Below the pieces are notes generated by a model, which had not been told where the DNA came from, searched no databases, and worked only from the letters and a program-made list of their open reading frames with translations. From positions 1,736,001 to 1,800,000 of the forward strand of contig AP023052.1 of assembly GCA_019703815.1 (NCBI GenBank): a stretch of DNA of 64,000 nt, written 5' to 3'. This DNA comes from Thaumasiovibrio occultus. Its GTDB lineage: Bacteria > Pseudomonadota > Gammaproteobacteria > Enterobacterales > Vibrionaceae. This document shows positions 1-17,543 of this stretch, piece by piece. A program made the position numbers and the translations under genes. Positions within the stretch are counted from its first letter, which is position 1, and the number at the start of each line of letters is the position of its first letter.

Positions 1-3000
1 GTCCCTCTTCTACATCAGAGCAACGCTCTTCAGCTTCAGTGTTTAACTCAATCTCAAAGTCAGCTGTTTCTTGGTGTATGTTCTCACTCGTAACATCAGC
101 TTGGCTGTCGACTTCGAGCGCTTCTGCTTGAGTTTTTCCACCTAGAACATATTCGGTCGGTACGTGACATAACTTGACGATATCTAACTTGTTAAGCACT
201 TCTTGCAGTGGCGTTTCGACCAAACGAGGAAGCAAGCCCATCGGTAAGTCGACTTTTAGCACGCCATCCAACATTTTATAATCGGGTTGCAAGCAACTTG
301 CGCCCTCAAGGTGACTGACAACAAAACCATCTGGGTAATCAGCAACTTTTGCTAGCGAGTAATCGCCTTTCAGCCACTCTTCTTTGTTATCTAGTAGTGC
401 GTCAAAGTAGTCTGGAGCGAACACATTGTACAAGCGGTACTTGTCTACCTGCATTAGCACTTGACGCATGAACAGACCGCGGTAAAGCTTGCTTGCAAGG
501 TTGTCATTGCCAAGCAGATCTTCGCTCAGGTAGCGCAACAACTCTTTTGATTGCTTAACTGCTTTTTTGTAGTCAGGAATTGAACCCGTTTTTACTTCCA
601 CGGGTAGCAAGTACATGTCTTGCCCTTTAAAGCCTACAAGCAGTACATCATCAGAAATCTCACCTTTTTTGTAACCATGAACGTTGCGCGAGAATTCACT
701 GTCTGACATTTTTAGGCCAATGTTTCCTGAAACACGGATCATTTCTGCCACAGAAAGCGGAACCCAGGTGATGTCTGAGTTGTGAACTAAGCTGGTCACA
801 AACTTATAAGCACCAATAACACCTTTGCGCTCTTTGTTGATGGTTGGCGCGCAGGTCATCATCTTCAACAGCCAGTCGCCGTTAAAGGCATTGAACTCAT
901 TGATTTGGCCACCATCACCCTGCTTAATGACTTTTTCAAACAGACCACGCTGTGCCGTTACGGTAATCGCATCGTAGCTGGATGAGCTGGTGTACTGATC
1001 GGAATAGTGAATCAGCACCACATCTTCATTGCTGTGGAAGAAATCTAATGTCACTTTTGGATCAATGATGGTTGTCCAAATGGAGCTGTCGTATGAGCGC
1101 TCTAGCAAACCTTTAAAATCTTCACTCACTGCAAGCGCAACTGCGTTTGCACCGTGATATTGCGTATTTGGCTTTAACGCTGGCTTGAGTAAAGCACCAA
1201 CGTATTTGGCCATCATCAGGTGTGGGTGGCCTTGATAATCGGTGCCCTTCAAACCAAAGCCAGTAAAGTAAGAGCCAGATTTACTCTCAGACGCGTCACC
1301 CGTTAATAGACCATCACATGCAATACCAGAAGCCATGTCTTCGATTGCAATGTCGGAGCAATCCACTTTGTCGTTATTACGGAAGAACGAGAGGTGCGCG
1401 TATGACTGACCGTCTTTATTCGCCTGCTCATTGGTAAACTTACTGTAGGTTAAGCGAGTGCGAAGGATATCAATGATGGTATCCGCCACTTCACGTACTT
1501 TGCCTTTGTTCAGCTCTAACCACTCCTTCAGTTCGTCGTAATTGGCTGTTTCTGCAAAGCGGTCAAACGCATTAAACGTCAGTTTGTCATCATAAAGGTT
1601 GATATGAATCGAAGCCGCTTGTTCTTGATTGCTACGGATGTAATCCACTAGCCCCATGAACAGCTCTTCAGCGCTATCTTGATTCACTGCGTTGATGATG
1701 ATGCTCTTTTCAGAACCTGTGAATAGTTGACTAAATGCGGTTTGGAACTCGTCGATTTTTTCTTTGACGAGTTTACGAACGAATGTCAGTGAACTCTTCT
1801 CTTGAGGGACGCTTTTTATCCAAAATGCGTTTTCTTTCACCTGTTGGTTGTAAGCAAACTCGTGCTGAGGATGATAAACATATGGCAACAAGCCTTTTGG
1901 TGATAGGCGCTCAAACGTCACATCAGGCAAGCTAGCAAAGCTTTCATCTTCACGAATCACTTTGCGTAGGTTTAGGTAGTAAGCCAATATTAACGGGTGG
2001 AACGGAGAGTAATACTCTTCACCTTCAGATTTAACCAAACCAATTTGCAGCGCGACTTTTTGCTCTTTGGTCAGCATACTGCCCGTTGGAATCGCTTCAA
2101 AGTAAGCAAAACTTGCATCGACTACATTTTGTACAAGCGTCGTAAAATCATCCCCCCAAGAGGCTAGAGATGGTGTACTACGACGCTGCTCAAGGTAATC
2201 ATACAATTCGACATAGGATGAATGAATCGCGTCATCAATGGCTTGTACATCATCCAACTTGATTGTGTCAGAGTCAGAAATAGACACGACTTTGTCATTG
2301 ATGAAGGCTTCTTCCCAGCGCAGCAGTTTTAAACGAACACCAGGTACAACAAATTCGCTGTTATCGATACCAACTTTACCTTTTTGGGAGTAAAACTCGC
2401 CGTTGTATTCATCTTTGAATAACTTATGGTAACGGCCTCGGTTGAGTAGCAAAGGCAAGCTCAACGAGTCTGTTGCTACTGCACCTTCGACATTGAACTT
2501 AAGCTGGTTGTCGCCTGATTTAACAGTGAAATCAATTTCATCCGCTTCATTGGCAAGTGCCTCAAAGTCCACCAGCGAGTGCTCTGCTACGTCTACGACT
2601 TGTTTTGCATCCGTCAAAGAACAAGCTGTACCCTCTTCCGCTCGAATCTGAAGCTTATTTTCTTCCATGTTCAAGGTTAAACGCTGCTTCGCAGGCGCTG
2701 GCTCGATCAAGAAGATGTTTTTGAATGACTCAATGTAAAATTCACCCTTGCGAACAACGAGACAGCGGAAGTTGTAGACCTCAGACTTGTTCTCGCGCTT
2801 GAGCGCTAGGTTGAAGAACAACGGTTCGTTATTGTATGTACCTTTCAAGCTTGCTCGGGTCGTCTTCAGGCCATTCAGCGTTGAAATCACTTCTTGATTA
2901 CCAAGCGCTTTAGCTGGTTGAATTTTAAACTGGCTCTTTTCTAGATTGCTTGCACCTTGGAAAATCAACTTCAATTCAAAGTCATTGACGCCTTCGTCTA

Positions 3001-3943
3001 GCTCAATGATAAGGTGACGATCACGCATACCGGCTTTAGTTTCTGCACGGTTACGCGCAGTAATAGTCATGCCTTCGCTGGCTTGCTCTTCTTCAAGGAC
3101 AAGTTGCTGCTGTGCATTGCGTTTTTTCTCTTGTAGAAACGCTTCAAACTCAACATCTTTCCACGCATCAGTTTCAGAGAAGTTTTCGTTAATGAATTTT
3201 TCACCAAACGACTTCAAACGGTCCTGAAGCTGATCACCGAAGTGTTCCACTTCAAAAGAAAGCTCTTCATAGAGTGCACGGTTGTCTTCCAAACGTTTTT
3301 TGATTTGTTTCGGGTTACCACTCATCTCTGCAACGAGCGGATCTTCAAACATACCAAGCTCATTGAAGCGCAGATCACCATCTTCAACAGCTTTGTATAG
3401 TGATTCAAAACCGAACATGGTCGCGCCATCTTCAAGGATCGCATCAAACTGGTCATCCAAAAGACAATTAGACACATCACGGCCTTTGTCTTGTTGATCA
3501 ATCAGCCCTTTCATCGCCGCTTTGATCTTGCTTGGACTCCACACCTGATCAAGCTGAGCCAGATCTTCTGCTGAGTTAATCAAAGTATCCAACAAGCTAT
3601 TGTGAATGACCACCAGCGCGCAGCCCTTCAAGTAGCCTGACTGGCTTGCAACTTCATCACGTAGGTGAGAGATATAGTTTTCTGTAAAGCCTTGGTACTC
3701 TGCAGGATCTTCACTATGAATAACAGATACGATCTTACAGTTAGACAACTGAATAAATGGCAGCTCGATACCGTTGCTCGCACTAATGAAACTTTGTGAA
3801 TGTGCGATCATCGCTTGGTACAAGCGTGCACTGTTTTCGCTATCTGGTGACTTGAACTGATAACGGAAGCCTGCCTTGATGTGAGTTTCAGCGTCAGCCA
3901 AAAACTGCTCAACTAGAAAGGTCTCAAATTGTTTTACGGACAT
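1..3943 (-). CDS. DNA phosphorothioation-dependent restriction protein DptH (partial)
   Basis: This is the N-terminal 1314 residues of a very large protein; the reading frame runs without a stop to the left edge, so the C-terminus is outside the window. It starts with ATG at 3943 inside the end of dptG (20-base overlap), the usual F-G-H order. DptH (DndH) forms the restriction complex with DptF and DptG that cuts DNA lacking phosphorothioate marks. In the family the C-terminal part carries a HerA/FtsK-like ATPase, which would lie beyond base 1; no Walker motif was seen in the visible part. The visible C-terminal 50 residues are strongly acidic. The call rests mainly on its position after clear dptF and dptG genes and on its size. 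Confidence 0.85.
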   Translation of the reverse strand, partial: MSVKQFETFLVEQFLADAETHIKAGFRYQFKSPDSENSARLYQAMIAHSQSFISASNGIELPFIQLSNCKIVSVIHSEDPAEYQGFTENYISHLRDEVASQSGYLKGCALVVIHNSLLDTLINSAEDLAQLDQVWSPSKIKAAMKGLIDQQDKGRDVSNCLLDDQFDAILEDGATMFGFESLYKAVEDGDLRFNELGMFEDPLVAEMSGNPKQIKKRLEDNRALYEELSFEVEHFGDQLQDRLKSFGEKFINENFSETDAWKDVEFEAFLQEKKRNAQQQLVLEEEQASEGMTITARNRAETKAGMRDRHLIIELDEGVNDFELKLIFQGASNLEKSQFKIQPAKALGNQEVISTLNGLKTTRASLKGTYNNEPLFFNLALKRENKSEVYNFRCLVVRKGEFYIESFKNIFLIEPAPAKQRLTLNMEENKLQIRAEEGTACSLTDAKQVVDVAEHSLVDFEALANEADEIDFTVKSGDNQLKFNVEGAVATDSLSLPLLLNRGRYHKLFKDEYNGEFYSQKGKVGIDNSEFVVPGVRLKLLRWEEAFINDKVVSISDSDTIKLDDVQAIDDAIHSSYVELYDYLEQRRSTPSLASWGDDFTTLVQNVVDASFAYFEAIPTGSMLTKEQKVALQIGLVKSEGEEYYSPFHPLILAYYLNLRKVIREDESFASLPDVTFERLSPKGLLPYVYHPQHEFAYNQQVKENAFWIKSVPQEKSSLTFVRKLVKEKIDEFQTAFSQLFTGSEKSIIINAVNQDSAEELFMGLVDYIRSNQEQAASIHINLYDDKLTFNAFDRFAETANYDELKEWLELNKGKVREVADTIIDILRTRLTYSKFTNEQANKDGQSYAHLSFFRNNDKVDCSDIAIEDMASGIACDGLLTGDASESKSGSYFTGFGLKGTDYQGHPHLMMAKYVGALLKPALKPNTQYHGANAVALAVSEDFKGLLERSYDSSIWTTIIDPKVTLDFFHSNEDVVLIHYSDQYTSSSSYDAITVTAQRGLFEKVIKQGDGGQINEFNAFNGDWLLKMMTCAPTINKERKGVIGAYKFVTSLVHNSDITWVPLSVAEMIRVSGNIGLKMSDSEFSRNVHGYKKGEISDDVLLVGFKGQDMYLLPVEVKTGSIPDYKKAVKQSKELLRYLSEDLLGNDNLASKLYRGLFMRQVLMQVDKYRLYNVFAPDYFDALLDNKEEWLKGDYSLAKVADYPDGFVVSHLEGASCLQPDYKMLDGVLKVDLPMGLLPRLVETPLQEVLNKLDIVKLCHVPTEYVLGGKTQAEALEVDSQADVTSENIHQETADFEIELNTEAEERCSDVEEG

Positions 3944-5276
3944 AAACTGCGTCTCCACTATCACTCATGCGCTCAACGTTACCAATGCGCTCATAGAATT
4001 TAATTAGTTCTTGTTCGGTTTGTTTATCTACGAAAATGCCACGTTGTTTAAATGCGGCAATCAGCTCGTGGAAACGGAGTTTGTCCTTTTCTCCAACAAC
4101 AAGGTTGGTTAATAAAATGATGTAGTCTTGGTTAAGCACCAACACTCGGCCACTGCGACCTCGGCTTTGAATAAAGTGAGCAGCAAGATACTTTTCTACT
4201 TCAGAAACGTATTTTTTGTTGATGTTGAATCGCTCGCCGATACTAAACTGTGCCATGGCTAACTTCATGATGTTGCCAAGCCAGTCCAGCGCAGATTCCG
4301 ATTCATCAAGCGATGTATCAAGTCCACGCTGAGCTTTAAATGCTCGCGCAAAGTTCTCTAAGTCACTCTTTAGGTGTTCATAGCGGGATTCTTGAATCCC
4401 CTTTGAAATCGCCCACAATGGTACTTTGGCAGCACTCTTGTCACCCATGCCAGGCTGAAGAAGTTCTAGCATTGTCAACATTGGGAACAAACGAGTCGCC
4501 GATTCATTGAAAAGCTTGTAACCGTGATTTTTGATGTGTGTACGTTCATTGCTAGCACGCTCATGATCCATGATGAAGTACAACGGCTTCGCTGTTGGCT
4601 CCTCACCAGAGCGCCAATCTGTGAGTGATAGGCTTAACTGAGCAGTGTAAGCAAAACCGTAAAAAGACAAGAACGATTCGATTTCACTTAACAGGTACTT
4701 AGGTCGACAGGCCAAAAACTTCAAATCATCACGAAATGCTTTAGATAGGTATGGCAAGTATGGATGCTCACTTGCTTGCATTGATGAATCGCTCTTCATC
4801 TTGCCACGCAGAGTTGAAAGCATCTCTCGTTCAATAAAGTTGAGTTTTGCATCAAACTCTTCGACACGCATGTTCTGAAGTAAGTTGGTAAACATAGAAG
4901 CAACACGAGAATCACCAGCTGCAAACTCACCTTTTTGCGCACGAAATAGTAAAAGCTCAGGGCTCACAGAGAAGATATCTTTGTTATCAAAGTACATCTC
5001 TCGTAGAACTTCCCAAAACTCTTCTTCGCCTAACTTCTCTTCAAACGCAGACTGACAATCAGAGACAAAATCCTCGTATTTGTAGCCTTCAATCTTCTTA
5101 CGTAATAATCCACGTAATACAAGACCAATTACCGCGTAGATATCAAAGTCATTACCTTTGGTGCGAATTGGAAGGTAACTGTTCAAGCTATTTTTATTAG
5201 GTACGTCTTCCGCTGTTTGTGGCAACTTCGGATTAAACGGTTTGATGTATTTATCCATTGTCATCTTAAATACCAC
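3924..5276 (-). CDS. dptG: DNA phosphorothioation-dependent restriction protein DptG
   Basis: A 450-residue soluble protein of the length expected for DptG (DndG), the middle gene of the dptFGH restriction cluster. No catalytic motif or membrane segment is visible, and the family has no well-defined domain. The first ATG at 5276 overlaps the end of dptF by about 11 bases, and an alternative ATG lies five codons further in (MTMDKYIK). The stop overlaps the start of dptH. Tight overlaps on both sides imply translational coupling and a fixed ratio of the three proteins. The assignment rests on sequence resemblance and on context. Confidence 0.87.
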   Translation of the reverse strand: MVFKMTMDKYIKPFNPKLPQTAEDVPNKNSLNSYLPIRTKGNDFDIYAVIGLVLRGLLRKKIEGYKYEDFVSDCQSAFEEKLGEEEFWEVLREMYFDNKDIFSVSPELLLFRAQKGEFAAGDSRVASMFTNLLQNMRVEEFDAKLNFIEREMLSTLRGKMKSDSSMQASEHPYLPYLSKAFRDDLKFLACRPKYLLSEIESFLSFYGFAYTAQLSLSLTDWRSGEEPTAKPLYFIMDHERASNERTHIKNHGYKLFNESATRLFPMLTMLELLQPGMGDKSAAKVPLWAISKGIQESRYEHLKSDLENFARAFKAQRGLDTSLDESESALDWLGNIMKLAMAQFSIGERFNINKKYVSEVEKYLAAHFIQSRGRSGRVLVLNQDYIILLTNLVVGEKDKLRFHELIAAFKQRGIFVDKQTEQELIKFYERIGNVERMSDSGDAVYVRKTI

Positions 5277-6861
5277 TCACTTCGAAATACTCGTCATCTT
5301 CATTGACGATCTTGTAGCGCTTATCATTCTTCAGGATAAACAGGGTGCTCTTCTCGTTTGCAACAGTAATGATCTGTTCAATCACCTCATCCAACAGCAG
5401 CACCGCGTTTTTGTCGTGCTTATTAGGTCGATACCCCTGATTAATCTTCTCTAACAACTCGAGTAAGTTGATACTGATTGGCATTGGAAGAAGTGTGTTA
5501 TCATCAGCACGAACGTGTGCATTGAAAGCTCCAATTTTGCTCACGCCCTGAGTTTTAATTGCCGTAAAATCCGGTTTCACCTCAAGCTCAGCAGCCGTTT
5601 TAAAACCGTTATATTCTGAGATAAAAAATTGGTCTTTATCAAGCGTTGGAGAGTTACGATTACAGTAACGGTGGATAGCTGCAATTACGATGTCTTTGTA
5701 GAACTTGTTTAGTTCTTTTTTCTGATGAGCAGATCCATCGAACTCACGATGAAGTAGCCAGATATTGGCATACTGATTCACTAAAGAGTTATCGAAATCG
5801 ACTTTCAGCTCGTTGATGTATTCGTTCGAAAATTGCTCTTCATCTTTTAATAAATACACCATGCGCAAGTAAGAAACTGCACTTAATACGTCAAATACTC
5901 CGAGCGGCCTCACTTGCTCTTTTAACTGAGTAAAGCCTTCATCTTCAATGCCCAAACCAAATTGCAAAACAAACTCATCAATCTTGCGAGTATGAATATT
6001 GCTTGGGTCAAAGCTCTGAATGTGCTCTAACAGCTCGTTGTCCGCACCGGAGAATAAATTATCGAACAGGTAACCATCCGTCGCTAAGATCTGGAAAACG
6101 AAATCCAGTAAAGCACGCGCCGTTAAAAATTGGTCTTTGATCAAACGTGCTTTGAGTAATAAAGCAATAATGCTCTTTTGAACAGAATCTAACCCCAACA
6201 AAGCGTAATTCGCGGTCAGCGTGGTGTGGCCGGACTTTTTCACTTCACTATCATAAAGCGCATAAAACGGATTATTTAAAGTAGGCTCAGTTAAGCGAGC
6301 GAGAAACTGAGCCGCAAAATCAGAAGTGCTTACTTCATGACCCAGAGTAAACTTCGGGTACTGCTCGAAATCTAGATATGTATGGTTCGCTGGAATGTCG
6401 TCCGTTTGATTTTCCAGAAAAGCCTTTATCGACGCTTTTACATCGTTATGTTGGTCAGCACCTTCCTCAGCATAGTTACCCAACATACCAATATTAATGC
6501 CAACAACAAGTGGCTTGTCATTTCCTTTGAACTGAGTGAAACGCTCATCTAACGCATGAATAGCCGTTTGGCTCGGGTTGAAGCTATGTGTCGCATCAAG
6601 ATGAAAATCATGCGTTGCTTTATGCTTTTGGCTGTATTGCGTCAAAATCTCCGACTTGCCGTCACCACTACTGCCACACAAAAAGATGATCTCATCTTTT
6701 TTGGCAGACAGAAGCGCTTGCTTAAAATCAGCTTCAATGTCGGTTTTGATGTAGATATGGCTTTTATATTCAGCCAGACAGTCTTGATTTGGCTCTCTTT
6801 CGGTACTTACCGCATAAGGTGATGACTTGGAGAGAATGCTGAGGGCTTGTGCTAAATTCAA
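5266..6861 (-). CDS. dptF: DNA phosphorothioation-dependent restriction protein DptF
   Basis: A 531-residue P-loop NTPase. The Walker A motif GSSGDGKS is at residues 63-70, and the N-terminus (SKSSPYAVSTE, then YIKT) and DFHLDATHSF are typical of DptF (DndF). DptFGH cut DNA that has not received phosphorothioate marks from the Dnd modification proteins. The start is a TTG at 6861: the family normally begins right at this point, no ATG fits, and a GAGAAAG ribosome-binding site lies a few bases upstream within a small CTTTC/GAAAG hairpin. It is the first gene of the dptFGH operon. No dndB, C, D or E gene lies between it and the right end of the island. Confidence 0.92.
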   Translation of the reverse strand: MNLAQALSILSKSSPYAVSTEREPNQDCLAEYKSHIYIKTDIEADFKQALLSAKKDEIIFLCGSSGDGKSEILTQYSQKHKATHDFHLDATHSFNPSQTAIHALDERFTQFKGNDKPLVVGINIGMLGNYAEEGADQHNDVKASIKAFLENQTDDIPANHTYLDFEQYPKFTLGHEVSTSDFAAQFLARLTEPTLNNPFYALYDSEVKKSGHTTLTANYALLGLDSVQKSIIALLLKARLIKDQFLTARALLDFVFQILATDGYLFDNLFSGADNELLEHIQSFDPSNIHTRKIDEFVLQFGLGIEDEGFTQLKEQVRPLGVFDVLSAVSYLRMVYLLKDEEQFSNEYINELKVDFDNSLVNQYANIWLLHREFDGSAHQKKELNKFYKDIVIAAIHRYCNRNSPTLDKDQFFISEYNGFKTAAELEVKPDFTAIKTQGVSKIGAFNAHVRADDNTLLPMPISINLLELLEKINQGYRPNKHDKNAVLLLDEVIEQIITVANEKSTLFILKNDKRYKIVNEDDEYFEVSGI

Positions 6862-7649: not shown

Positions 7650-7886
7650 ATGTCACATACGTTACTATCAACCAAAGAACTTGCTCAAAGGATCAAGTTT
7701 AACCCAAGTTACATCAACTCAACACTGCGCGATGCCGTTTTTGTGGAGGGCGTGCATTACATTCGCCCATTCAATGGCCGCAAAATCCTTTATATCTGGG
7801 AAGCGGTTGAAGAAGAGATGTATCGCTCATCTAACCGAAACCAAACTTATATCCCGATGGCGGGAGGGCGTATCTGCAATGGCTAG
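7650..7886 (+). CDS. Excisionase-like small DNA-binding protein
   Basis: A 78-residue protein with a predicted winged-helix/MerR-like N-terminus (STKELAQRIKFNPSYIN) followed by Val-His-Tyr-Ile-Arg-Pro-Phe and Arg-Lys-Ile-Leu-Tyr, the pattern of small excisionase-type proteins that precede tyrosine integrases. A GGGGG ribosome-binding site is 8 bases before the ATG. It overlaps the start of the integrase by 8 bases, so the two are translationally linked. It would help recombination directionality of the element; this role is inferred from position and fold. Confidence 0.7.
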   Translation: MSHTLLSTKELAQRIKFNPSYINSTLRDAVFVEGVHYIRPFNGRKILYIWEAVEEEMYRSSNRNQTYIPMAGGRICNG

Positions 7887-9090
7887 CATTAACGCGCGCT
7901 CCGGCAAACTACGTATAGAGCTGAGGGTTCACGGTGAGCGCTGCCGAGAGCAGACCGCCTTACCCGATACCCCAGCTAATCGACGTAAACTCCAAAAACT
8001 GATCAATGATATTGATGCGGATATCCGTCTCGGTTGCTTTGTCTAGCGCGATTACTTTCCTGGCTCAAAACGAGCTCGTCAGTTTATCGCTCAAGACAAT
8101 CAAGCCGCCAAACGAAAAGAAAACATGTTGTTTCACTATAAAGCAGCACATAATCAACTGACTTTTCGTGACAACGTCACGTTTCATGATTTTGCCGATA
8201 TTTGGTTTGATGAGAACCAACCGCGTTGGAAACAAAGCTATCAAGAAACCCTGCAACTGATTTTAAGAAGTTATCTCATCCCTGAATTCGGTCATATGCC
8301 CATCAAGGAGATCACGCGGGGTGATATTCTCCAGTTCCGCGCCCAATTAACCCAGCGTAAAAAAGCACTATCGAATGACTTCATCAATCATGTCATGACC
8401 CCGCTGCGGATGATCCTGTCTGAAGGCGCCGATCGGTATGAATTTCGGACACCGTTTGAGAATATTAAAGCGCTCAAAGTCCCTAAACGCGATGTTCACC
8501 CGTTTTCTCTTGATGAGGTGCTCTATTTTCTTGAACACATTCGGCCTGACTTTCGCCCCTATTACACCGTTCGCTTTTTTACGGGTATGCGTACTGCCGA
8601 AATTGATGGTCTGAAATGGAAATACATCGATTGGAAGAGAAAGCTCATTCGCATTCGAGAGACCCTCGTCAATGGCCGTCCTGATACGGCCAAAACCGAT
8701 GGCTCAGTGCGTGAGATTCAAATGTCGAGTTTAGTTTACCAAGCCCTGAAAGAGCAACAAGCGTTGAATAATGGGCGTAGTGACTATGTGTTTTGCACCA
8801 ATGTCGGCACCCCTCTCGATCATCGCAACGTCCGTGACCGAATTTGGAAGCCGGCACTTAGTGCCATGAACTTTGGTTATCGCCGTCCCTACGAAACGCG
8901 CCATACGGCAGCTACCCTATGGCTCGCTGCAGGTGAGGCGCCAGAATGGATAGCGCGTCAAATGGGACACAGCACCACCAAAATGCTATTCGAGGTTTAC
9001 AGTCGCTTTGTACCGAACCTCACAAGGCAAGATGGCAGCGCCTTTGAAGCCCTACTCCAACGCTCTCAGCAACAAGGAGGCTCAAAATGA
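7879..9090 (+). pseudogene. Tyrosine integrase broken by an in-frame amber stop
   Basis: Read through, this frame gives a 403-residue phage-type integrase: an N-terminal DUF3596-type arm-binding domain (residues 1-60), a SAM-like core-binding domain (about 85-180) and a catalytic domain with Arg-238 (TGMRTAEIDGL), Arg-341 (YETRHTAA), His-364 (MGHS) and Tyr-374 (VYSRF). The single defect is TAG at 8044-8046 (codon 56), where relatives have Tyr in a Phe-x-Tyr-x-x-Tyr-Phe-Pro motif. The frame continues with Arg-Asp-Tyr-Phe-Pro-Gly-Ser-Lys with no shift. A restart at ATG 8125 would give a 321-residue protein with all catalytic residues but no arm-binding domain. A GGGAGGG ribosome-binding site supports the start at 7879. 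Confidence 0.85.
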
Positions 9091-9423: not shown

Positions 9424-12400
9424 TTATTCGTCCAATGGCGCTTGCGTATTATGCTGATCCCAGAGGTAGATAAGTTGAAGAAATAGCGGGATCACCTTCG
9501 AACGTCTCGGATTGATAAAGACCCGTTTATTGCCTCTTGACGTACGATCCGATTGTCGACGCACCACGAAGAGCGCGACATGCCCAAGAGGTGTATCTTT
9601 AAGGAACGTGCCATCGTCACTCACGGTGACATTTTGAAACCACTGTTTTCTATGGGAGAAATCTTTAGTCACATAACGATGAATTGACGTAGGCGAGACG
9701 CAATTTTCAAAATATGACACCAACGCCTTATTTGTCTTTTCAAGACGTTTCCGTGCACTCTGCTGATCAACCCCAGTGTGTCGCGGCAGATACCAATGCA
9801 GGCGAAAATACGTTTGCTTCAAGCCTAGCTGTGTCAACATGACAATCATCGCTCTGATTTGTCTGATCTTGTCAGTGCGAATTAACCAATCTTTGGCAGG
9901 GGTCATTTGATGAACAAGCAAAGCAGCCTCTTGCCATAACTTATCAAAGGACGCTTGGTGCAACTCAAACTGTTTAATGAAGAATTCAACGATGCGAATC
10001 TCCGGGCCGTTCAGTTTTCCTTTCGCCAAAATCTTCAGGTTTCTCTTCGATTTCCCTCGCCGCATCTGCTCAAACTGATCGGCTCTTCTCAAGATGGCCA
10101 TCACCACATCGGGATGAAGACCCAGATCGGCGGCAATGTCCATAGCGAGCTTATTCGCTGTATACAATCGCAAGATCTGCCACACGGCTTTCAAACTTAT
10201 CTCTTTACTCTGTGCAGGCTTTAGCACTGTCAATGAACACGGTTTTTCAAGGCGAACGTTAGGTGGCCGCAATGTCAACTCACTCATGATGTCATCACTG
10301 CCCCACTCGCCATTGTTGTTCACACGATAAATACTCTCTCGACCAAACACTCCTTGGATGGCCTCTATGCCTGGTGCAACAGTTGTGAAAAGATGTGTCA
10401 TCAAAGCGTTGATATGGATATAAGACGCCATTGTGGTGTGATGGCTGTTGTGTCCTAGCAACTCACTCAGTACTAACAGCCGCTTTCGGCTGTAATACCG
10501 CAGGCCCAATGACTCAGCTAGTTGGTCACTCCATTCAACATCGACATAGTGCAGTGCCGCATAGGATAACCAGTCAGGAATAGATTGGAGCTGTTTACGA
10601 TGCAACGCTAACCATACCCAGTTAGCAAAAGCGTGTCGTAAGTGGTGAAAACGCAGGGTGCCATCACCCGTAATATCCTTCAGTAAGCTCGTCACCAACA
10701 TCAGTGATTTATCGGTGAGATAAGGCTGCGGAAACAAGCGTTCACTCGACTTTGCTCCAATCTTTTCCCGACGCTCAAGATACTGCTGCAAACTCGCTCG
10801 CAGATCATCAGGCCACAACACATGCAAAGGCAACGCGCGGCGACTCGCCGGTGATTTCAAGTCACGTTGCTCATTACTCCGCACATAGACAATGCATTGG
10901 CGTTGCCAACATTGAATGTCACGAAGCTGCAATCCCCTGATCTCATTTCGCCGCAACCCCGAGTAAAACGCAAAGCTGAGTGCTAAGCGCGCAATTTCAT
11001 GGACCTCACCTGCCTGCCGGGCCAAATGCTCGGCAATAACCATCACTTCTCTCGGCGTAACCAGATTTGTATCAACCTTGGTGGTGACTGAGCTCACGCA
11101 CAGTTCTTCAAGGACATCTTGGCCCACAATGCTGCTTGCAACGAGGTAGCGCGCAAAATAATGAACATACTGCTTGTGTCGTGTCACCGGAATCGCGTCG
11201 ATAACAACGTTTAACTTATCGGCCCACAACCCATCTGTCATTTTACTCGGGATCGCATCAGCGAACTCCGTCAGAAAAGGATTTAAGACAGCGTTGCTAT
11301 AGGTTTTAATGGTTTGTAGCTTCAGTCGGCTCTTTACATTGCCTTTATCAAGCAAATGGACCACCCACGAGATCATCAACCACAACCAAGGCGCCTGCTC
11401 AGCGTAGGTGTCATCTTCTAACCACTGACGCAACGCCGCTTTTATGCCTTTCTTTTGTCGCTTCGGCGCCAATTTAATCGCCGTGTTGACCACCGTATCA
11501 AAAATGGATAATTGACGGTTTAATGTAATATCGGCCTGTTGCGCTGATCGTCGTTGAACCCTTTGCCATCGTCGAGTTTCTTTCTGATTGGCGACCACCT
11601 CAGGTTCAATGCGACTATCGGCGCTACTGCAGCGGCGCGAGGTGATCAAACGGTACCAAGTATGGGGTAACAATGACTCGCTTGTTAATGTGCCGGCTTT
11701 GATTTCTTTAAACACCGGTCCTTGCGTTAACCCCCATTCGATTTTTGCCAGTCGTGTCAGTTTACGAAAGTGACCGAACGATAAGGGCAGTCCACGACGT
11801 TGTAGATAATGACGAATAGACAACGCCAACGTAGGCTTGGCCCCATCATTGAGTAACCAGTATTGGTACAACCAAAGGCGTGTTTGCGCAGAGACCATCA
11901 CCATGGTTTGATCATCTTGAAAATAAAGACAGTCATCTATCTGATACCAGCCTTGTTTTGCTGGCGATAGCATTTGCTCAACCGTCTTTTGAACCACCAC
12001 ACCCTCTTTAAGTACAAGCCATAGCGCAAGCCGTCCTATAACTAACAGCGGCTCATCTGCTCCACTTGGCACTTCGCTTTCTAACGATGGAAATAAATAG
12101 GAAGCGCCTGCGCTATAAACGAAATCGGTCGGGGTCAGTACGGGAAGATCTTTTTTCAGGGTGATCAACTTCGGTAACTCTGGCGAATCAATACCGGCTT
12201 CCGCTTTCGCCGTCCGAAGTACAAGCTCCAAAATATCGTATTGGATTTGCCGAAGATCCTTGTTGGTAGAGAAATAGCTAATAACGCGTCTTAAGCTCGC
12301 TTGAGACACCAGCCCTGAATCATCGATATTCAAGTGAAGAACATAACGCTCTTCAAACTTGTTACAACATTGCTGTAAGTCAGTCGTCTTCACATGTTGG

Positions 12401-12477
12401 AAATCATGCTTCACCCGCTCAGCACAACGCTTAGCAAATCCATCGGTTACCTTAGCAATGAAGGAATGCTCTGCCAT
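9424..12477 (-). CDS. Very large tyrosine recombinase (1017 residues)
   Basis: The tyrosine-recombinase catalytic set is complete: Arg-509 (YSGLRRNEIRGLQL), His-Leu-Arg at 612-614 (FHHLRHAFAN), His-676 (LLGHNS) and Tyr-686 (MASYIHI). The protein is more than twice the length of a usual integrase, with about 400 residues before the core-binding region and a C-terminal extension of some 330 residues that includes a possible helix-turn-helix (near 770-800) and a basic patch. ATG at 12477 has a GAGGAGAGAGG ribosome-binding site and overlaps the previous gene by 31 bases. It is the last gene of a three-gene operon next to the island end, so it probably acts in element integration or excision. Confidence 0.85.
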   Translation of the reverse strand: MAEHSFIAKVTDGFAKRCAERVKHDFQHVKTTDLQQCCNKFEERYVLHLNIDDSGLVSQASLRRVISYFSTNKDLRQIQYDILELVLRTAKAEAGIDSPELPKLITLKKDLPVLTPTDFVYSAGASYLFPSLESEVPSGADEPLLVIGRLALWLVLKEGVVVQKTVEQMLSPAKQGWYQIDDCLYFQDDQTMVMVSAQTRLWLYQYWLLNDGAKPTLALSIRHYLQRRGLPLSFGHFRKLTRLAKIEWGLTQGPVFKEIKAGTLTSESLLPHTWYRLITSRRCSSADSRIEPEVVANQKETRRWQRVQRRSAQQADITLNRQLSIFDTVVNTAIKLAPKRQKKGIKAALRQWLEDDTYAEQAPWLWLMISWVVHLLDKGNVKSRLKLQTIKTYSNAVLNPFLTEFADAIPSKMTDGLWADKLNVVIDAIPVTRHKQYVHYFARYLVASSIVGQDVLEELCVSSVTTKVDTNLVTPREVMVIAEHLARQAGEVHEIARLALSFAFYSGLRRNEIRGLQLRDIQCWQRQCIVYVRSNEQRDLKSPASRRALPLHVLWPDDLRASLQQYLERREKIGAKSSERLFPQPYLTDKSLMLVTSLLKDITGDGTLRFHHLRHAFANWVWLALHRKQLQSIPDWLSYAALHYVDVEWSDQLAESLGLRYYSRKRLLVLSELLGHNSHHTTMASYIHINALMTHLFTTVAPGIEAIQGVFGRESIYRVNNNGEWGSDDIMSELTLRPPNVRLEKPCSLTVLKPAQSKEISLKAVWQILRLYTANKLAMDIAADLGLHPDVVMAILRRADQFEQMRRGKSKRNLKILAKGKLNGPEIRIVEFFIKQFELHQASFDKLWQEAALLVHQMTPAKDWLIRTDKIRQIRAMIVMLTQLGLKQTYFRLHWYLPRHTGVDQQSARKRLEKTNKALVSYFENCVSPTSIHRYVTKDFSHRKQWFQNVTVSDDGTFLKDTPLGHVALFVVRRQSDRTSRGNKRVFINPRRSKVIPLFLQLIYLWDQHNTQAPLDE

Positions 12478-14930
12478 CCTCTCTCCTCAAGCATCTTGTC
12501 CAACAATGGGCGTAGATACTGTGTTGCGCTCTGATAATCGAAGCATGAATAGTCGCCGAGAAAAGCCTGCCCAGAGAGCCAATGACCGAGCTGGAAATTA
12601 ATCAGCTCTGAGGGGCATTGTTGTTCAAGCAAGTAAGACTGTAAATTGTGACGGCCTGCGTTTACAGGAACAGAAAAAGGCAATTGCGTTTTAAGCCAAC
12701 TCGGTGAGACCACATTGACATCCCCGGTATCCTCGGAGAAATAGAAGAGCGGTCCCGGTCTGTCTTTCGCGTTTTTATGATCATGGAACCATTGACGTGC
12801 GGTAGCGATAGTGTCATTGGGAACATGCTGTTCTAGCCACTCTGTCAATTGCCGCCCTAACCTTGGATCCAAGGCTATCAGCCGGGTCCGTAAAGCCAGT
12901 AAATGACGCGTATAGTTAGCGAGCTGCTCAGCCAACACCGTGGGCAAGCAGACAACCCGAGTGTGGGCATAATCGCTATTGTCCTTATCACTGATCACCA
13001 CCAGTTGGTATCGCGCTAACACCATCGACAGAGAGGGTAATGGGTTGTATACCGCGCGATAGCCTGTCGCATAAAGCACTAGATAACTGGTATATGCCGC
13101 ATAGGCGTTGTGATACCTCATCATTGCCACCAACTCACGATATACCTGTTTGTCTTTGCTCCGCAAGGGGTGTTGTAAACACGCCACCATTTCTCGCTGG
13201 GTGGCTAAGGTCGGCACAAAGCAACTCCCTATCCCGCTCTCCGTACTTTGGGGTATCCAAGTAAGCAAATCCGTTGGCAGGGCGTCGCTCTCATCCATCC
13301 GTAGATGAATGGTGCGCCATATTTTCTCTAAATTGGAAGCAAGGCAACTGAGCGTATAGTAGCTGTAATGCCTTGTGGTGCGAGTCACCAGCGACGTCGT
13401 GCGAAAAGCAAAATCCAGGCACGTTGGATCAATCTCCTCATCTGCCAACGTGGTCATCAATAAAAACGCTTCGATAGACTGGCAGCTGAGGTTTGCGCTT
13501 TGCCTTCTCGCCCAACGTTCCACCCAATGACGACATGCCTGATTTACCTCTTGAAGGTATTCTCGGGGAATAAGCGCGCCTTTATACCCTAACAAGTCAC
13601 TACGGTGCGCTTGTCGAACCACACGACGAACACTTTTGGGGCAATCCCAGTGCACATAATTCGTCACTGGTTCAAATCGCCTCGACTCAACGGGGCGACT
13701 CGAGCGCTTTACTATCGATGCCAAGCCAAACGAAAGCCACCAATCACCTTTCTCATCAATATAAATCCCGTCTAAGCTCGGCTGTGAAGAGATAGATAGA
13801 CCACACAACTCATCAATGGATTTGCCGAGTATCAGCGACAAGTAAAGCGCCATCCCAATCACCGATTTAGGCACGCCCTGTACGGTGTAATGCTGCAATG
13901 ACAAGCTATTTAGCGCGTCAAAGAGCAATGCCAGATCGCGCCCTGAAACCAGTGAAATTGACGCAGGGGAGCGATTGTACTGACGACGCACTCGCCGCGT
14001 ATAGCTTTGCTGAATCATTGAACGCTTTTTAGCGTTGCCAATATTACTCAAAAAAGGGCCTTGAGCTGCATCGCGCGCAGGCATGCTGCAATCTTCCACT
14101 ATCTGAGGCAAAAGCATCGTATCTCCTGCCGCTAAGCCGTCCTTTTCATCGTTCTTCTTCCCGTGGCCAAAGTGGAGCAATAAATCAGGATCACCTAATA
14201 CATGAGCAGCGACTCCGCGCCCTATTGCCCTTAACGAAGACGTGGGCGATACCCGAAAGTGGCCTTTTGTCTCCTTCCAATCGGCGGCAAAGAAATGCGC
14301 GAGTTGCGTCATATAAGACTTTTGGTATTCGGCTAATGTGGTGTCCATATCTCTATCTTGACGCAGTAAACATGCAATTTCTGGCGGCGAATAGTGAATA
14401 TATTTACTAGGCTTCATGGATTCGCATGATTGCATTAGAAGACGAAATCGATCGCAGGATTCTTTCAGCCTGATATCCAATTTGGTGCTGCTGGCAATTT
14501 GACCAACACGATTATTTGCGAGCGCATAATATTGCGCTAAAAATAACGCCACAAATTCAGCTCGCCCTGGTGAATCTTGAAAGCGATGATAGGAAAATAA
14601 CAGTGCGTATAGGGGACGATCTTCACACCACCCCTTCGCCATTTCTTTCTTTTTTAGAAGCCGAATACCATCAAACTCATTCAGGCTTAAGCCATCACAT
14701 AATCCCTCATAGACAGGAGATGAAAGGCCAAACTGTAAATGAAAATCGTCCTGAACGTTTTCGCATAGCTCCACGATTGTATCCATCACGCGAATTAAAC
14801 CGCGACGGTTATCGGGTGCTTGAATTAAATCAAAAAAGTCACTCAACTCGCGTTCAACACGTTGGCGATCGGCTTCACATTGGTGATTAATAATGAACTC
14901 AACTAAGCGCAGGTATTGATTCTCATCCAT
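12447..14930 (-). CDS. Large recombinase-like protein (827 residues)
   Basis: The last 75 residues look like the end of a tyrosine recombinase active site: an Arg-His pair (AGRHNLQSYL), a Leu-Gly-His-Trp, then Tyr in GDYSCFDY. The first catalytic Arg is not obvious. The long N-terminal part has no domain I recognise. I place the start at ATG 14930, with AGG six bases upstream and 7 bases after the previous stop; an upstream in-frame start at 14972 would overlap the previous gene. It is the middle gene of the operon and probably works with the 1017-residue recombinase, as in other multi-recombinase elements. Confidence 0.75.
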   Translation of the reverse strand: MDENQYLRLVEFIINHQCEADRQRVERELSDFFDLIQAPDNRRGLIRVMDTIVELCENVQDDFHLQFGLSSPVYEGLCDGLSLNEFDGIRLLKKKEMAKGWCEDRPLYALLFSYHRFQDSPGRAEFVALFLAQYYALANNRVGQIASSTKLDIRLKESCDRFRLLMQSCESMKPSKYIHYSPPEIACLLRQDRDMDTTLAEYQKSYMTQLAHFFAADWKETKGHFRVSPTSSLRAIGRGVAAHVLGDPDLLLHFGHGKKNDEKDGLAAGDTMLLPQIVEDCSMPARDAAQGPFLSNIGNAKKRSMIQQSYTRRVRRQYNRSPASISLVSGRDLALLFDALNSLSLQHYTVQGVPKSVIGMALYLSLILGKSIDELCGLSISSQPSLDGIYIDEKGDWWLSFGLASIVKRSSRPVESRRFEPVTNYVHWDCPKSVRRVVRQAHRSDLLGYKGALIPREYLQEVNQACRHWVERWARRQSANLSCQSIEAFLLMTTLADEEIDPTCLDFAFRTTSLVTRTTRHYSYYTLSCLASNLEKIWRTIHLRMDESDALPTDLLTWIPQSTESGIGSCFVPTLATQREMVACLQHPLRSKDKQVYRELVAMMRYHNAYAAYTSYLVLYATGYRAVYNPLPSLSMVLARYQLVVISDKDNSDYAHTRVVCLPTVLAEQLANYTRHLLALRTRLIALDPRLGRQLTEWLEQHVPNDTIATARQWFHDHKNAKDRPGPLFYFSEDTGDVNVVSPSWLKTQLPFSVPVNAGRHNLQSYLLEQQCPSELINFQLGHWLSGQAFLGDYSCFDYQSATQYLRPLLDKMLEERGWQSIPSLLR

Positions 14931-14937
14931 AGTGAAC

Positions 14938-15489
14938 CTAGAGTTGTTTTTTACTGATATGCAACCATTCACTCACTTTTTCTTTGGTTGTCAATTTCGG
15001 GTATATATCACGCCACTCCGCCGACTGATAAATACTTCTCGCCTGCGGATCTTTCTCAAACCAAATATTCAAGAACTCACCGATTGCGGTAGCACTAGTA
15101 ACAAAACCCTCATTGAGTAAACTCTGTGTCAACGCATGAAGAATGATCCGCCGTCTGACTTTTCTCTCTGGCTGCTTTTCAAGGAGAGTAATGGGATACC
15201 TTCTTACAGATTCTTCCCCCCTCTTCACGGCAAAACTTAATAGCTTGGTATGGGTAAAGAAACCACTCAATAGGTAATATTGCCGTTGATAGATATAACC
15301 AAGGAGTGGTGATTGATATGCCAACAAATCTAAGTTATCTTCCCCTCCCTCAAAAAGCATTGAGGCCGTTTTGGTCGACGCCACAGGATTTGCTTTTCGT
15401 ACAAGTGCAGCCAACTCTTCATCGAGACAAATCTTGTCCAACGGTTGGTAAACCTGTTTCACATTTATGCCGTACAGCTTCATGAGCAT
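14938..15489 (-). CDS. Unknown protein, first gene of the recombinase operon
   Basis: A 183-residue protein (ATG at 15489; GTG at 15492 or ATG at 15483 also possible). I do not recognise it. A stretch with Tyr-Gln-Arg-Gln-Tyr-Tyr-Leu-Leu-Ser-Gly-Phe vaguely recalls ParB/sulfiredoxin-type folds, but this is weak. The C-terminal half is helical and basic (RKVRRRI). It starts the operon that continues with two large recombinases and stops 7 bases before the next gene. By analogy with GInt and similar multi-recombinase elements it may be an accessory or DNA-binding subunit; this is inference only. Confidence 0.65.
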   Translation of the reverse strand: MLMKLYGINVKQVYQPLDKICLDEELAALVRKANPVASTKTASMLFEGGEDNLDLLAYQSPLLGYIYQRQYYLLSGFFTHTKLLSFAVKRGEESVRRYPITLLEKQPERKVRRRIILHALTQSLLNEGFVTSATAIGEFLNIWFEKDPQARSIYQSAEWRDIYPKLTTKEKVSEWLHISKKQL

Positions 15490-15726
15490 CACTGTCTGTT
15501 ATTAAACACACAGTAAATGTAGTACAGGAATTATCAGTTCACGTAACAGATTTGCCGAGATAGTGGTCGATTTTGTCACTTTCACAATGTGGTGATTTTT
15601 GTACCCAAAGTGGCCCCATCGCGCATTGAAGCACTGAATTTTACGTCAAAAACATTGAATTAAATTTAAAACGGTAGATTTAAGTCGCTGTTTTTATGTT
15701 GGAATTTCAAGATTAAATGATATTGT
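15490..15726. other. Terminal noncoding segment of the island
   Basis: About 235 AT-rich bases between the recombinase operon and the truncated mmsB. It must hold the promoter of the operon and probably recombinase binding sites, but no convincing -35/-10 pair or long inverted repeat was seen. Confidence 0.4.
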
Positions 15727-16428
15727 CTAATTTTCCGTCACAGGCTCGATATGTCTTGACATGGTAGGGGTCGGCAGTTCGATTCCCGAGCTCTTATGGA
15801 TGATTTCACTAAGAACGACAGGATCGAGTCCTAACGACTGACCCAAGGCAAGACCTTCGCAGGTCGCCGCCATCACTGAGCCCAAGATCAGGTTGTTACA
15901 AATTTTGGTCAGTTGCCCTGCACCGACATCGCCAGCGTGTAGCACTTGCTGCCCCATCGGATGAAGTACCGCTTTGGCCGCAAGATAATCTTCATTCGAG
16001 CCACCGACGATAAACGTGAGCGATCCGGCTTTCGCGCCCGCAATACCGCCAGAAACCGGCGCATCGACAAACCGAAGCTGCATTTGCTTGGCGCGCTCAC
16101 CCACTTCCGTGGCGGTAGCGGGATCAGTGGTGGAGCAATCGATGAGTAAGGTGTTGCTGCTAAGCTGGCTCATAATGCCAACGTGACCATCCTTCCCCAG
16201 ATAGATCTCTTTCACCTGCTCGCCCGACGGCAGCATAGTGATCACCACGTCCGCTCCCGCGACGGTTTGAGTCAGATCGCAGCACACCCGAGCACCAATT
16301 TTCTTTGCTCGCTCGCGCGCCGCCTCAGCCATGTCGTACGCATGCACCAAGGCCTCGTCGCTTTGCAGTAAATTATCCAGCATGGGCAAACCCATATTGC
16401 CCGTGCCAATGAAGCCTATTGTGATCAT
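15727..16428 (-). pseudogene. mmsB: 3-hydroxyisobutyrate dehydrogenase, 3'-truncated by the island
   Basis: This is the 5' two thirds of mmsB, the last enzyme before methylmalonate semialdehyde in valine breakdown. The NAD-binding site (GFIGTGNMG), the substrate signature (DAPVSGGIAGAKAGSL) and the catalytic Lys (GQLTKICNN) are present. After His-Lys-Ser-Ser-Gly (base 15784) family similarity stops and 18 foreign residues follow to a TAG; the protein has 233 residues instead of about 300 and lacks most of the C-terminal helical domain, so it is probably inactive. ATG at 16428 overlaps the stop of the upstream gene by 4 bases. The missing 3' end may lie at the other end of the island. Confidence 0.9.
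15755..15785 (+). other. tRNA-Val(GAC)-like fragment at the island junction
   Basis: Plus-strand bases TTGACATGGTAGGGGTC followed by GGCAGTTCGATTC match the anticodon loop (GAC), 3' anticodon stem, variable loop and T-stem/T-loop of a bacterial tRNA-Val(GAC). The 5' half, the acceptor stem and the 3' strand of the T-stem are absent, so this is not a tRNA gene. It ends exactly where mmsB homology begins, so it is probably part of the element's attachment site. Confidence 0.6.
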
Positions 16429-17543
16429 AAAAAGCTCCCAGGCATCGCACCCAGATCGTGCAACGGGTTTTGCGGCCAAGGCGGCGTGAACAGCTGATCC
16501 ACATAGGATTCAGGCACCGCTTGCGCCCGAGGGAAACGCCAATGCGGATCTTTGGTTTTCTCCACCAGCAGCGCCCTCACTCCTTCTTGAAAGTCGCCAT
16601 TCAGCACGCATTGCACCGAGAGTGCGAGCTCTAACTTGAATACCTCTTCCAGCGACAATGCTTGATATTGGTTAAGTTGGCGAAAGCAGATGTGCGCCGT
16701 GATCCCGCTGCCCTGCTGTAAGGTAGCCAGCGCATTTTCTAACCAAGGATCTTTGTTTTCTATCGCGTCGAGATTGGCAATACATTGAGTCAGGGAGTCG
16801 CTACGGCACGCTTGTTGTAAATGCAGCGACCATGTCAGCAGATGAGACGGTAACGTCGGAATTTGCGCATAACGCTCTAGCACAACGCTAACCGCATTGA
16901 AATCGTTGTCATCGCCTGACCATGCCACTTGGCACAGGGATTCGATGATCTGCGATTTACGCTGATTGTCGATACATACCGTGGCGAAATTACTGTCGAG
17001 GGCGTCCACCGCATTTAACGGTGCGCCGGTCATCGCGAGAAACAATCCAACCCCTTCAGGAAGCCGATTAAGGAACCACGTGCCACCCACGTCAGGGTAC
17101 AAGCCGATGTTGATCTCCGGCATCGCTAAGCGACTTTGCGAAGTGACCACGCGATGAGATGCGCCCATGAATAGCCCCATCCCGCCTCCCATTACTATGC
17201 CATGACCCCACGCGATGACAGGCTTGGGATAGCGATGAAGAAGGTGATCACAACGGTACTCAATAGAAAAATAATCGGTGAGCCACTCTTTGCCCTGTGA
17301 GGTTTGCGCTTGGTGGTACATGGTTTTCACGTCACCACCGGCACAGAAGGCTTTATCACTGCTCGAATCGATCAACACGGCCACCACGAAGGGGTCTTCG
17401 AGCCACATTTTCAGCTGGCTGTAGGTAGCGGCTAACATATCGAACGTCAACGCATTCAGCGCTGTTGGGTTATTTAGCGTTACCACACCAATTGCCAACC
17501 CGTTACCACACTGTACTGTCGAGAATAAGATCTGATCTTTCAT
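16425..17543 (-). CDS. 3-hydroxyisobutyryl-CoA hydrolase (enoyl-CoA hydratase family)
   Basis: A 372-residue crotonase-fold protein; this length is typical of 3-hydroxyisobutyryl-CoA hydrolase rather than a 260-residue hydratase. The oxyanion-hole segment is GHGIVMGGGMGLF and the catalytic segment MPEINIGLYPDVGGTWFL. It frees 3-hydroxyisobutyrate in valine breakdown, the substrate of MmsB encoded next (4-base overlap). I choose ATG 17543; the upstream TTG adds only four residues. With mmsB broken, its product would accumulate or need another dehydrogenase. Confidence 0.88.
   Translation of the reverse strand: MKDQILFSTVQCGNGLAIGVVTLNNPTALNALTFDMLAATYSQLKMWLEDPFVVAVLIDSSSDKAFCAGGDVKTMYHQAQTSQGKEWLTDYFSIEYRCDHLLHRYPKPVIAWGHGIVMGGGMGLFMGASHRVVTSQSRLAMPEINIGLYPDVGGTWFLNRLPEGVGLFLAMTGAPLNAVDALDSNFATVCIDNQRKSQIIESLCQVAWSGDDNDFNAVSVVLERYAQIPTLPSHLLTWSLHLQQACRSDSLTQCIANLDAIENKDPWLENALATLQQGSGITAHICFRQLNQYQALSLEEVFKLELALSVQCVLNGDFQEGVRALLVEKTKDPHWRFPRAQAVPESYVDQLFTPPWPQNPLHDLGAMPGSFL

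Follow-up and report, generated by a model that had tools for sequence, protein, structure and literature searches.

The window analysed here, a 64,000-nucleotide stretch of the Thaumasiovibrio occultus genome (contig AP023052.1, positions 1,736,001 to 1,800,000 of the forward strand), contains three adjacent leftward genes, referred to below as small, mid and giant, which span 6.1 kb, adjoin a truncated mmsB and form a genuine and conserved operon (the trio). Their open reading frames (ORFs) were listed at 14938-15492, 12447-14972 and 9424-12477; counted from ATG, the genes occupy 14938-15489, 12447-14930 and 9424-12477 on the minus strand and encode proteins of 183, 827 and 1017 amino acids (aa), respectively. 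The first-pass annotation of this DNA, which described three overlapping leftward genes of these sizes next to a disrupted mmsB, was right about sizes, direction and position (mmsB homology to five intact relatives does end near residue 232), but the overlap holds for giant and mid (31 bp) and not for small and mid, which with ATG starts lie 7 bp apart. Upstream of small, a spacer (15490-15754, minus strand) leads to a right attachment remnant at 15755-15782 on the plus strand, a 28-bp stretch with full identity to the 3′ half of the host tRNA-Val(GAC), spanning anticodon loop to T loop. On the other side, 334 bp beyond giant, lies a conventional integrase of the Arm-binding/Phage_integrase type (7780-9090, plus strand; PF14659 and PF00589), in which frame reading revealed an internal stop, a TAG in frame at 8044-8046. 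Together, the trio and an ordinary tyrosine integrase encoded apart from it probably constitute one four-protein site-specific recombination system inserting large islands, often carrying defence genes, into tRNA anticodon loops, as suggested by the operon, the conserved residues, the architecture of the attachment (att) sites, the co-occurrence of the integrase and the grouping of the proteins by tRNA target, all read from sequence, and we infer that trio islands move.

Giant matched PF00589 above the gathering score and, between long N- and C-terminal regions, carries a full R-K-H-R-H-Y set. Among 36 giants of at least 900 aa, including four fused proteins and five of the five-gene class described below, K541, R614, H676 and Y686 were each found in 36 out of 36 and R509 in 35, the remaining protein having a gap at this position, so that giant has the R, K, H/R, H and Y by which a tyrosine recombinase is recognised. 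The full catalytic set previously assigned to it stands for R509, R614, H676 and Y686 and gains K541; H612 drops out, since the HxxR motif is fitted by H611 (His in 29/36 giants, versus 27/36 for H612). A PDB sequence search with giant gave no match at E<=0.01, and no support was found for placing the giants in a "VPA1269 family".

Mid, numbered here along its 841-aa ORF with a GTG start, had been credited with only the C-terminal part of the catalytic pattern. This proves too weak a description: nearly the whole active-site pocket is retained, with its Arg/Lys/Arg/His residues (R639, K663, R774 and H797) present in all 35 mids that reach 700 aa (the count omits copies that are shorter, split or decayed, for example those at loci L149 and L152), and it is the tyrosine that is not conserved, the nucleophile position (Y808 in the window) being Y in 14, H in 9, F in 6 and another residue in 6 of the 35. 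In the AlphaFold model, which is of low confidence overall (mean predicted local distance difference test, pLDDT, 67), the C-terminal third of mid is predicted to have the catalytic-domain fold of a tyrosine recombinase, residues 582-833 aligning to the archaeal Xer 4a8e (Z 14.6, 2.5 Å over 168 residues; VIA). The fold call depends on this VIA alignment because Foldseek, which ranked the same 4a8e chain at the top, did so at E 0.073 and returned nothing at E<=0.001. Residues 332-534 also matched TelA/topoisomerase I weakly (Z about 6), a match that was left aside; the PDB sequence search with mid retrieved only an unrelated chain (E 0.22), and the mid relative at L018 had a sub-threshold archaeal-integrase match (E 0.0064). 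The model of small (mean pLDDT 87.7) is predicted to adopt the ParB N-domain fold: Noc/ParB proteins were its top Foldseek matches (best E 8.3e-4, probability 0.99, with a low template-modelling score of about 0.3), the VIA alignment to ParB reached Z 9.1 and 2.8 Å over 95 residues, and the C-terminal end reads in the alignment as helix-turn-helix-like. In a PDB sequence search, small retrieved SbnI (E 1.1), a protein of ParB-like fold, and an unrelated receptor (E 1.9). Neither mid nor small of the window matched any family at E<=0.1 in Pfam, NCBIfam, PADLOC or PHROGs.

Relatives of the trio could be found in a limited but phylogenetically broad set of genomes (the host genome is included in the genome counts for giant; L, G and C denote our loci, genomes and contigs). 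A search of relatives with giant recovered 6 out of 41 genomes, and a profile of three giants recovered 8/394 genomes of the order at E<=1e-30, one of them with a fragment, and 3/369 of the class at E<=1e-20. Four long-giant genomes that were followed (G015, G011, G010 and G035) and an Aeromonas record share the same three-gene order at giant identities of 16-29%, with mid split in two in G015; further giant matches occur in G013, G010 (C61), G011 (C2), G524 and G467. When genome contigs were scanned with the mid alignment, 18 loci emerged, in Shewanella, Vibrio, Enterovibrio, Veronia, Pseudoalteromonas, Rheinheimera, Azonexus and metagenome-assembled genomes (MAGs), one MAG locus being deltaproteobacterial with only two genes recognised. 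Wherever all three genes were present at a locus, they were ordered small-mid-giant. A single protein of 1762-1819 aa combines mid and giant at L036, L194, L198 and L209, with no recognised small gene, and the trio is split or decayed in Veronia (L149) and Shewanella KJ10-1 (L152). Seven plasmid records had a weak giant match and one of the seven also a mid match, and two scans of viral contigs found no trio relative. One Aeromonas caviae record, NZ_AP026896.1, is filed as a plasmid; its size of 4.94 Mb and an adjacent tRNA-Ile/tRNA-Ala pair suggest a chromosome.

The 3′ half of a tRNA, starting at the anticodon loop, sits just outside the small gene. A script placed the start of the match 160-272 bp upstream of small in 19/32 trio loci, and two further halves were recognised by eye (L147 at 372 bp and L155 at about 216 bp), giving 21/32 loci over 160-372 bp; any match at all was seen in 7/640 control windows of the same loci. 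The 32 loci are those left after omission of duplicates (L016, L138, L140, L150 and L190), near-copy or cut loci (L143 and L145), and L154, L193, L198, L210, L220 and L222-L230. Within the Val group, the junction GT/CTTGACATGG (the slash marking the junction point) was present in 13 out of 13 aligned cases, namely the window and 12 others. Other trios lie at tRNA-Asp(GTC) (L015, L201, L203, L205 and L206), tRNA-Gly(TCC) (L018) or tRNA-Arg(CCG) (L219 and L155); an ARAGORN call of tRNA-Phe in L155 was judged false. An intact tRNA was found at the far end of the five islands traced that far, in G384 (31 kb), G180 (97 kb), G214 (50 kb), A. caviae (46 kb) and G010 (48 kb), each of which is bounded by the intact tRNA and the 3′ fragment in direct order; G092 also has an intact tRNA, on another contig, its island being spread over two contigs. 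The identity blocks between tRNA and fragment measure 46-55 bp in G384, G180, G214, G092 and A. caviae, and in G010 19 bp followed by a one-base indel. The linkage of the trio to island ends, which the first-pass annotation had proposed to assess by counting co-occurrence, is borne out.

Several observations on the attachment site weigh against the four-protein interpretation. In 11 of the 32 trios, the nearest 1.5 kb contain no tRNA half; the half lies farther off in L019 (2.9 kb) and L151 (2.4 kb), the G011 fragment (at 824904) is 83 kb from its trio, and that of G015 is on a different contig. The 21 loci do not amount to 21 independent events, because several of the Val cases are close Shewanella relatives, and the Arg target depends on a weak match in L219 and on visual inspection in L155. 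A separate case is G074, which harbours on C4 two diverged trios (L037 and L038) with giants of about 1200 aa and no tRNA half within 1.5 kb.

The conventional integrase likely belongs to the trio as a fourth partner. The window copy is 60% identical to an intact copy at L031, with one TAG inside. In Shewanella ANA-3 (L141), the integrase is 1 kb away from the trio. Among 40 loci (L191-L230) retrieved around integrase relatives, a mid or giant homologue is present within the stretch read in 19; in loci with both, the integrase is downstream of giant in 22/24, many of these loci having been fetched because of the integrase, and on the strand opposite giant in 13/24. In the giant tree the Val (10/10) and Asp (5/5) members cluster, and in the integrase tree the Val (7/7), Asp (5/5), Gly (8/8) and Met (2/2) members do so, with target labels taken partly from the nearest tRNA and the trees read by grouping, no branch supports being considered. 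On the other hand, the Gly giants and the Arg giants form no single clusters, members of the integrase family abound in phages (1070 records, none reaching 60% identity), and 8/40 integrase loci lie near an intact tRNA-Gly(TCC), at 0.65-3.5 kb, with no trio in the stretch read; one of these eight, in G010, has a trio 40 kb away at the island end. The last two points allow that the integrase alone could be the tRNA recombinase, moving the islands by itself, with the trio as a linked accessory for excision control, island-end protection or a second recombination reaction. We consider this somewhat unlikely. It would agree with the complete standard domain set of the family member at L225, with the tRNA-Gly group, in which the integrase is the first gene after the intact tRNA, its classical place, and with the greater frequency of the integrase, found at E<=1e-70 in 37/394 genomes versus 8/394 for the Val-type giant at the E<=1e-30 given above; this gap is partly a threshold effect, because 19 of the 40 integrase loci do hold a mid or giant homologue. 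An accessory role is harder to reconcile with catalytic residues that are invariant across the 36 giants (R509 in 35), with giant and integrase trees that both group by target for Val and Asp, and with a trio end that abuts a tRNA 3′ half in 21/32 loci. A five-gene class reading in one direction (L222, L223, L225 and L227-L229; about 160, 530, 950, 420 and 390 aa) was also observed, whose third protein is a distant giant and whose last belongs to the same family as the partner integrase; upstream of its first gene, no tRNA half showing the expected T-loop and CCA could be recognised.

In the four-protein system as we picture it, an incoming island brings along its own copy of the tRNA 3′ half, and therefore the tRNA gene is rebuilt at the left attachment site (attL) and a 3′-half fragment is left at the right one (attR). 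The trio operon would be located at attR with small nearest the junction. Giant and the integrase would cleave, mid may bind core DNA as a recombinase-fold subunit that is non-cleaving in most members, and the ParB-like small protein may bind the roughly 200 bp beside attR, for which the spacer at 15490-15754 is the proposed binding region, and assemble the complex. A more elaborate version, which we put forward tentatively and regard as unlikely on present evidence, is a four-subunit tRNA-directed recombinase in which giant and the integrase would act jointly, mid would limit the reaction to one strand pair (copy-out or one-way insertion), and the ParB-fold protein would spread or clamp beside attR to license it. 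The idea that the trio is an integration machine, raised when the sequence was first read, is in part sustained: the conserved operon at island ends supports it, and what changes is the addition of a fourth partner, the integrase, and a tRNA target.

No description of a set comprising the trio and the integrase was found in the open-licence literature, the scope of our survey, outside which subscription papers, including that on the Gamma-Mobile-Trio (GMT), fall. The GMT is a gammaproteobacterial recombinase trio. The GmtY model NF040693 reached at best 22.1 bits in the genome, outside the window, against a cut-off of 340, and matched no window protein at E<=0.1. GMT islands are likewise described as mobile and rich in defence genes (PMC12715929). 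By analogy, the composition of trio plus integrase mirrors that of strand-biased circularizing integrative elements (SEs), whose genes are intA-tfp-intB-srap (PMC10214605), and of GInt, in both of which several such genes are described as necessary for recombination (PMC10214605, PMC5385486). SEs as described likewise have two catalytic tyrosine recombinases, one of them large, a recombinase-fold protein without the catalytic set and a small protein, with the genes at one end and occurrence in Gammaproteobacteria (PMC10214605). They differ in size (in SE-6945, IntB of 720 aa versus 1017 aa for giant and Tfp of 581 aa versus 827 aa for mid), and the trio has its integrase outside the operon, on the opposite strand in 13/24 loci, an order of small-mid-giant instead of intA-tfp-intB plus srap, and a tRNA anticodon as target. 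The SE authors find these elements by Tfp and Srap homologues in one block (PMC10214605), and the trio shows no convincing relation to either: hhalign gave a probability of 0.1% for small/Srap and for mid/Tfp and blastp no relation. Giant and IntA were linked (hhalign 95.7%) by the general catalytic core only.

GInt (ginABCD) resembles the set in three recombinase-like proteins plus a small one, a GinC without the catalytic Arg and a large cargo (PMC5385486); its four recombination genes lie in one operon with ginA first, unlike a trio with a separate integrase, and the main text of PMC5385486 does not use the word tRNA. Tn554 and related elements (TnpA, TnpB and TnpC) likewise combine one long and one typical tyrosine recombinase with a small third protein, but the long partner has 611-828 aa in the related set, and a tyrosine-less recombinase partner does not appear in PMC3414803 as far as its description extends. 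RIT elements are described as three adjacent overlapping genes of recombinase type, all three families having a possible catalytic motif, within about 3.5 kb and mainly in alpha- and beta-proteobacteria (PMC3414803), versus a 6.1-kb trio with a ParB-like first gene and a mid with the Tyr in 14/35. Membership in a described multi-recombinase class (SE, GInt, RIT, Tn554 or GMT) seems highly improbable: the compositions are alike, with an ordinary recombinase beside a large one, a recombinase-fold protein lacking the full catalytic set and a small protein, and the mid profile weakly matched the second pSEA1 Tfp-like protein (hmmsearch E 0.0021 in an 8-protein set; this gene set, used beside SE-6945, is SE-like only by similarity, at 22-25% identity), whereas the hhalign values, the GmtY result and the RIT architecture argue otherwise. 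The suspicion that the trio is little described and distinct from known systems accordingly holds against SEs by direct comparison and against the GmtY model, and the trio is set apart from GInt and Tn554 by descriptions and architecture, not by protein sequences. Insertion at an anticodon loop is by itself ordinary: anticodon-centred att sites are common (2083 in the Islander table), and ordinary tRNA islands likewise have a rebuilt tRNA at one end and a 3′ fragment at the other (PMC4383910). The difference is that there one integrase suffices as the defining gene, and trio islands add a conserved three-gene operon at the fragment end.

In our case, the window copy appears to have lost part of this architecture. 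Its tRNA-Val fragment ends at the T loop and is fused there to mmsB (15783-16431, minus strand), a neighbouring gene outside the element that comparison with relatives shows to be cut at about residue 232 of its ORF. With the fragment cut short and fused to a truncated gene, mmsB does not qualify as the natural target; the island most likely attached at the anticodon loop of a tRNA gene, here tRNA-Val, contrary to the earlier proposal of mmsB as integration site. A clean insertion into mmsB was rejected, because relatives have the same tRNA junction and the lost mmsB C-terminus and the next gene, queried from relative G001, were not found elsewhere in the genome, where only SDR (short-chain dehydrogenase/reductase) paralogues of <=36% identity turned up. 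That the mmsB junction is nevertheless the true insertion site, with the tRNA-Val piece as chance or unrelated leftover, is barely credible: the junction does lie inside mmsB and no attL was found in the genome, but the piece has 28 bp of identity to the host's own tRNA-Val and the Val-group junction ends the trio loci of 12 other members. The missing attL, sought by a tRNA core pattern search and by array comparison, does weigh against the four-protein interpretation. At <=3 mismatches the core pattern occurs at five places in the host genome (G000), four in two tRNA-Val arrays plus the window remnant. The arrays, each with two tRNA-Val(GAC) and one tRNA-Val(TAC), lie on both chromosomes (L047:1486-2015 and L136) and are 94% identical over 542 columns. 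A left end at the C1 tRNA-Val found no support, the C1 array matching the C2 array past tRNA-Val(TAC). An ORF after the tRNA-Val array (L047, about 2030-2340) presumably resembles a P2-like terminase, which would point to prophage remnants on the island's left. The mmsB junction itself gives the impression of a later cut or rearrangement. For the window copy the likeliest history is an old insertion with a subsequent deletion, and we take it to be a rearranged, probably immobile member of its family. Judging by the architecture of relatives, the trio could plausibly be the real mover of the dpt island, but the copy here has no detectable left end and an interrupted integrase.

The cargo of the window (1-6861, minus strand), identified by protein searches, comprises a DndG homologue (3924-5276), a DndF homologue (5266-6861) and the end of a 1721-aa ORF, which we presume to be DptH; homologues of DndB, DndC and DndD lie left of the window. 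Sampling of a few large proteins per island found defence genes in 4/4 islands sampled. The A. caviae island contained DndF and DndG, with three of five proteins lacking a match, the G214 island contained Druantia III DruE/DruH, type I restriction and a methyltransferase, and the single protein tested from the G384 island was Avs1b-like. The trio with its integrase is a likely mover for one class of defence islands, and the trio, the roughly 200 bp beside it and the tRNA half provide a sequence mark for island ends. To the multi-partner recombinases (SE, GInt and Tn554) it adds a group with new protein families, in which the role of "dead" recombinase subunits becomes testable through a pocket that is invariant although its tyrosine is not conserved. 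If the reading outlined above, a four-subunit tRNA-directed recombinase, is true, this machine would rank as a widespread carrier of anti-phage systems.

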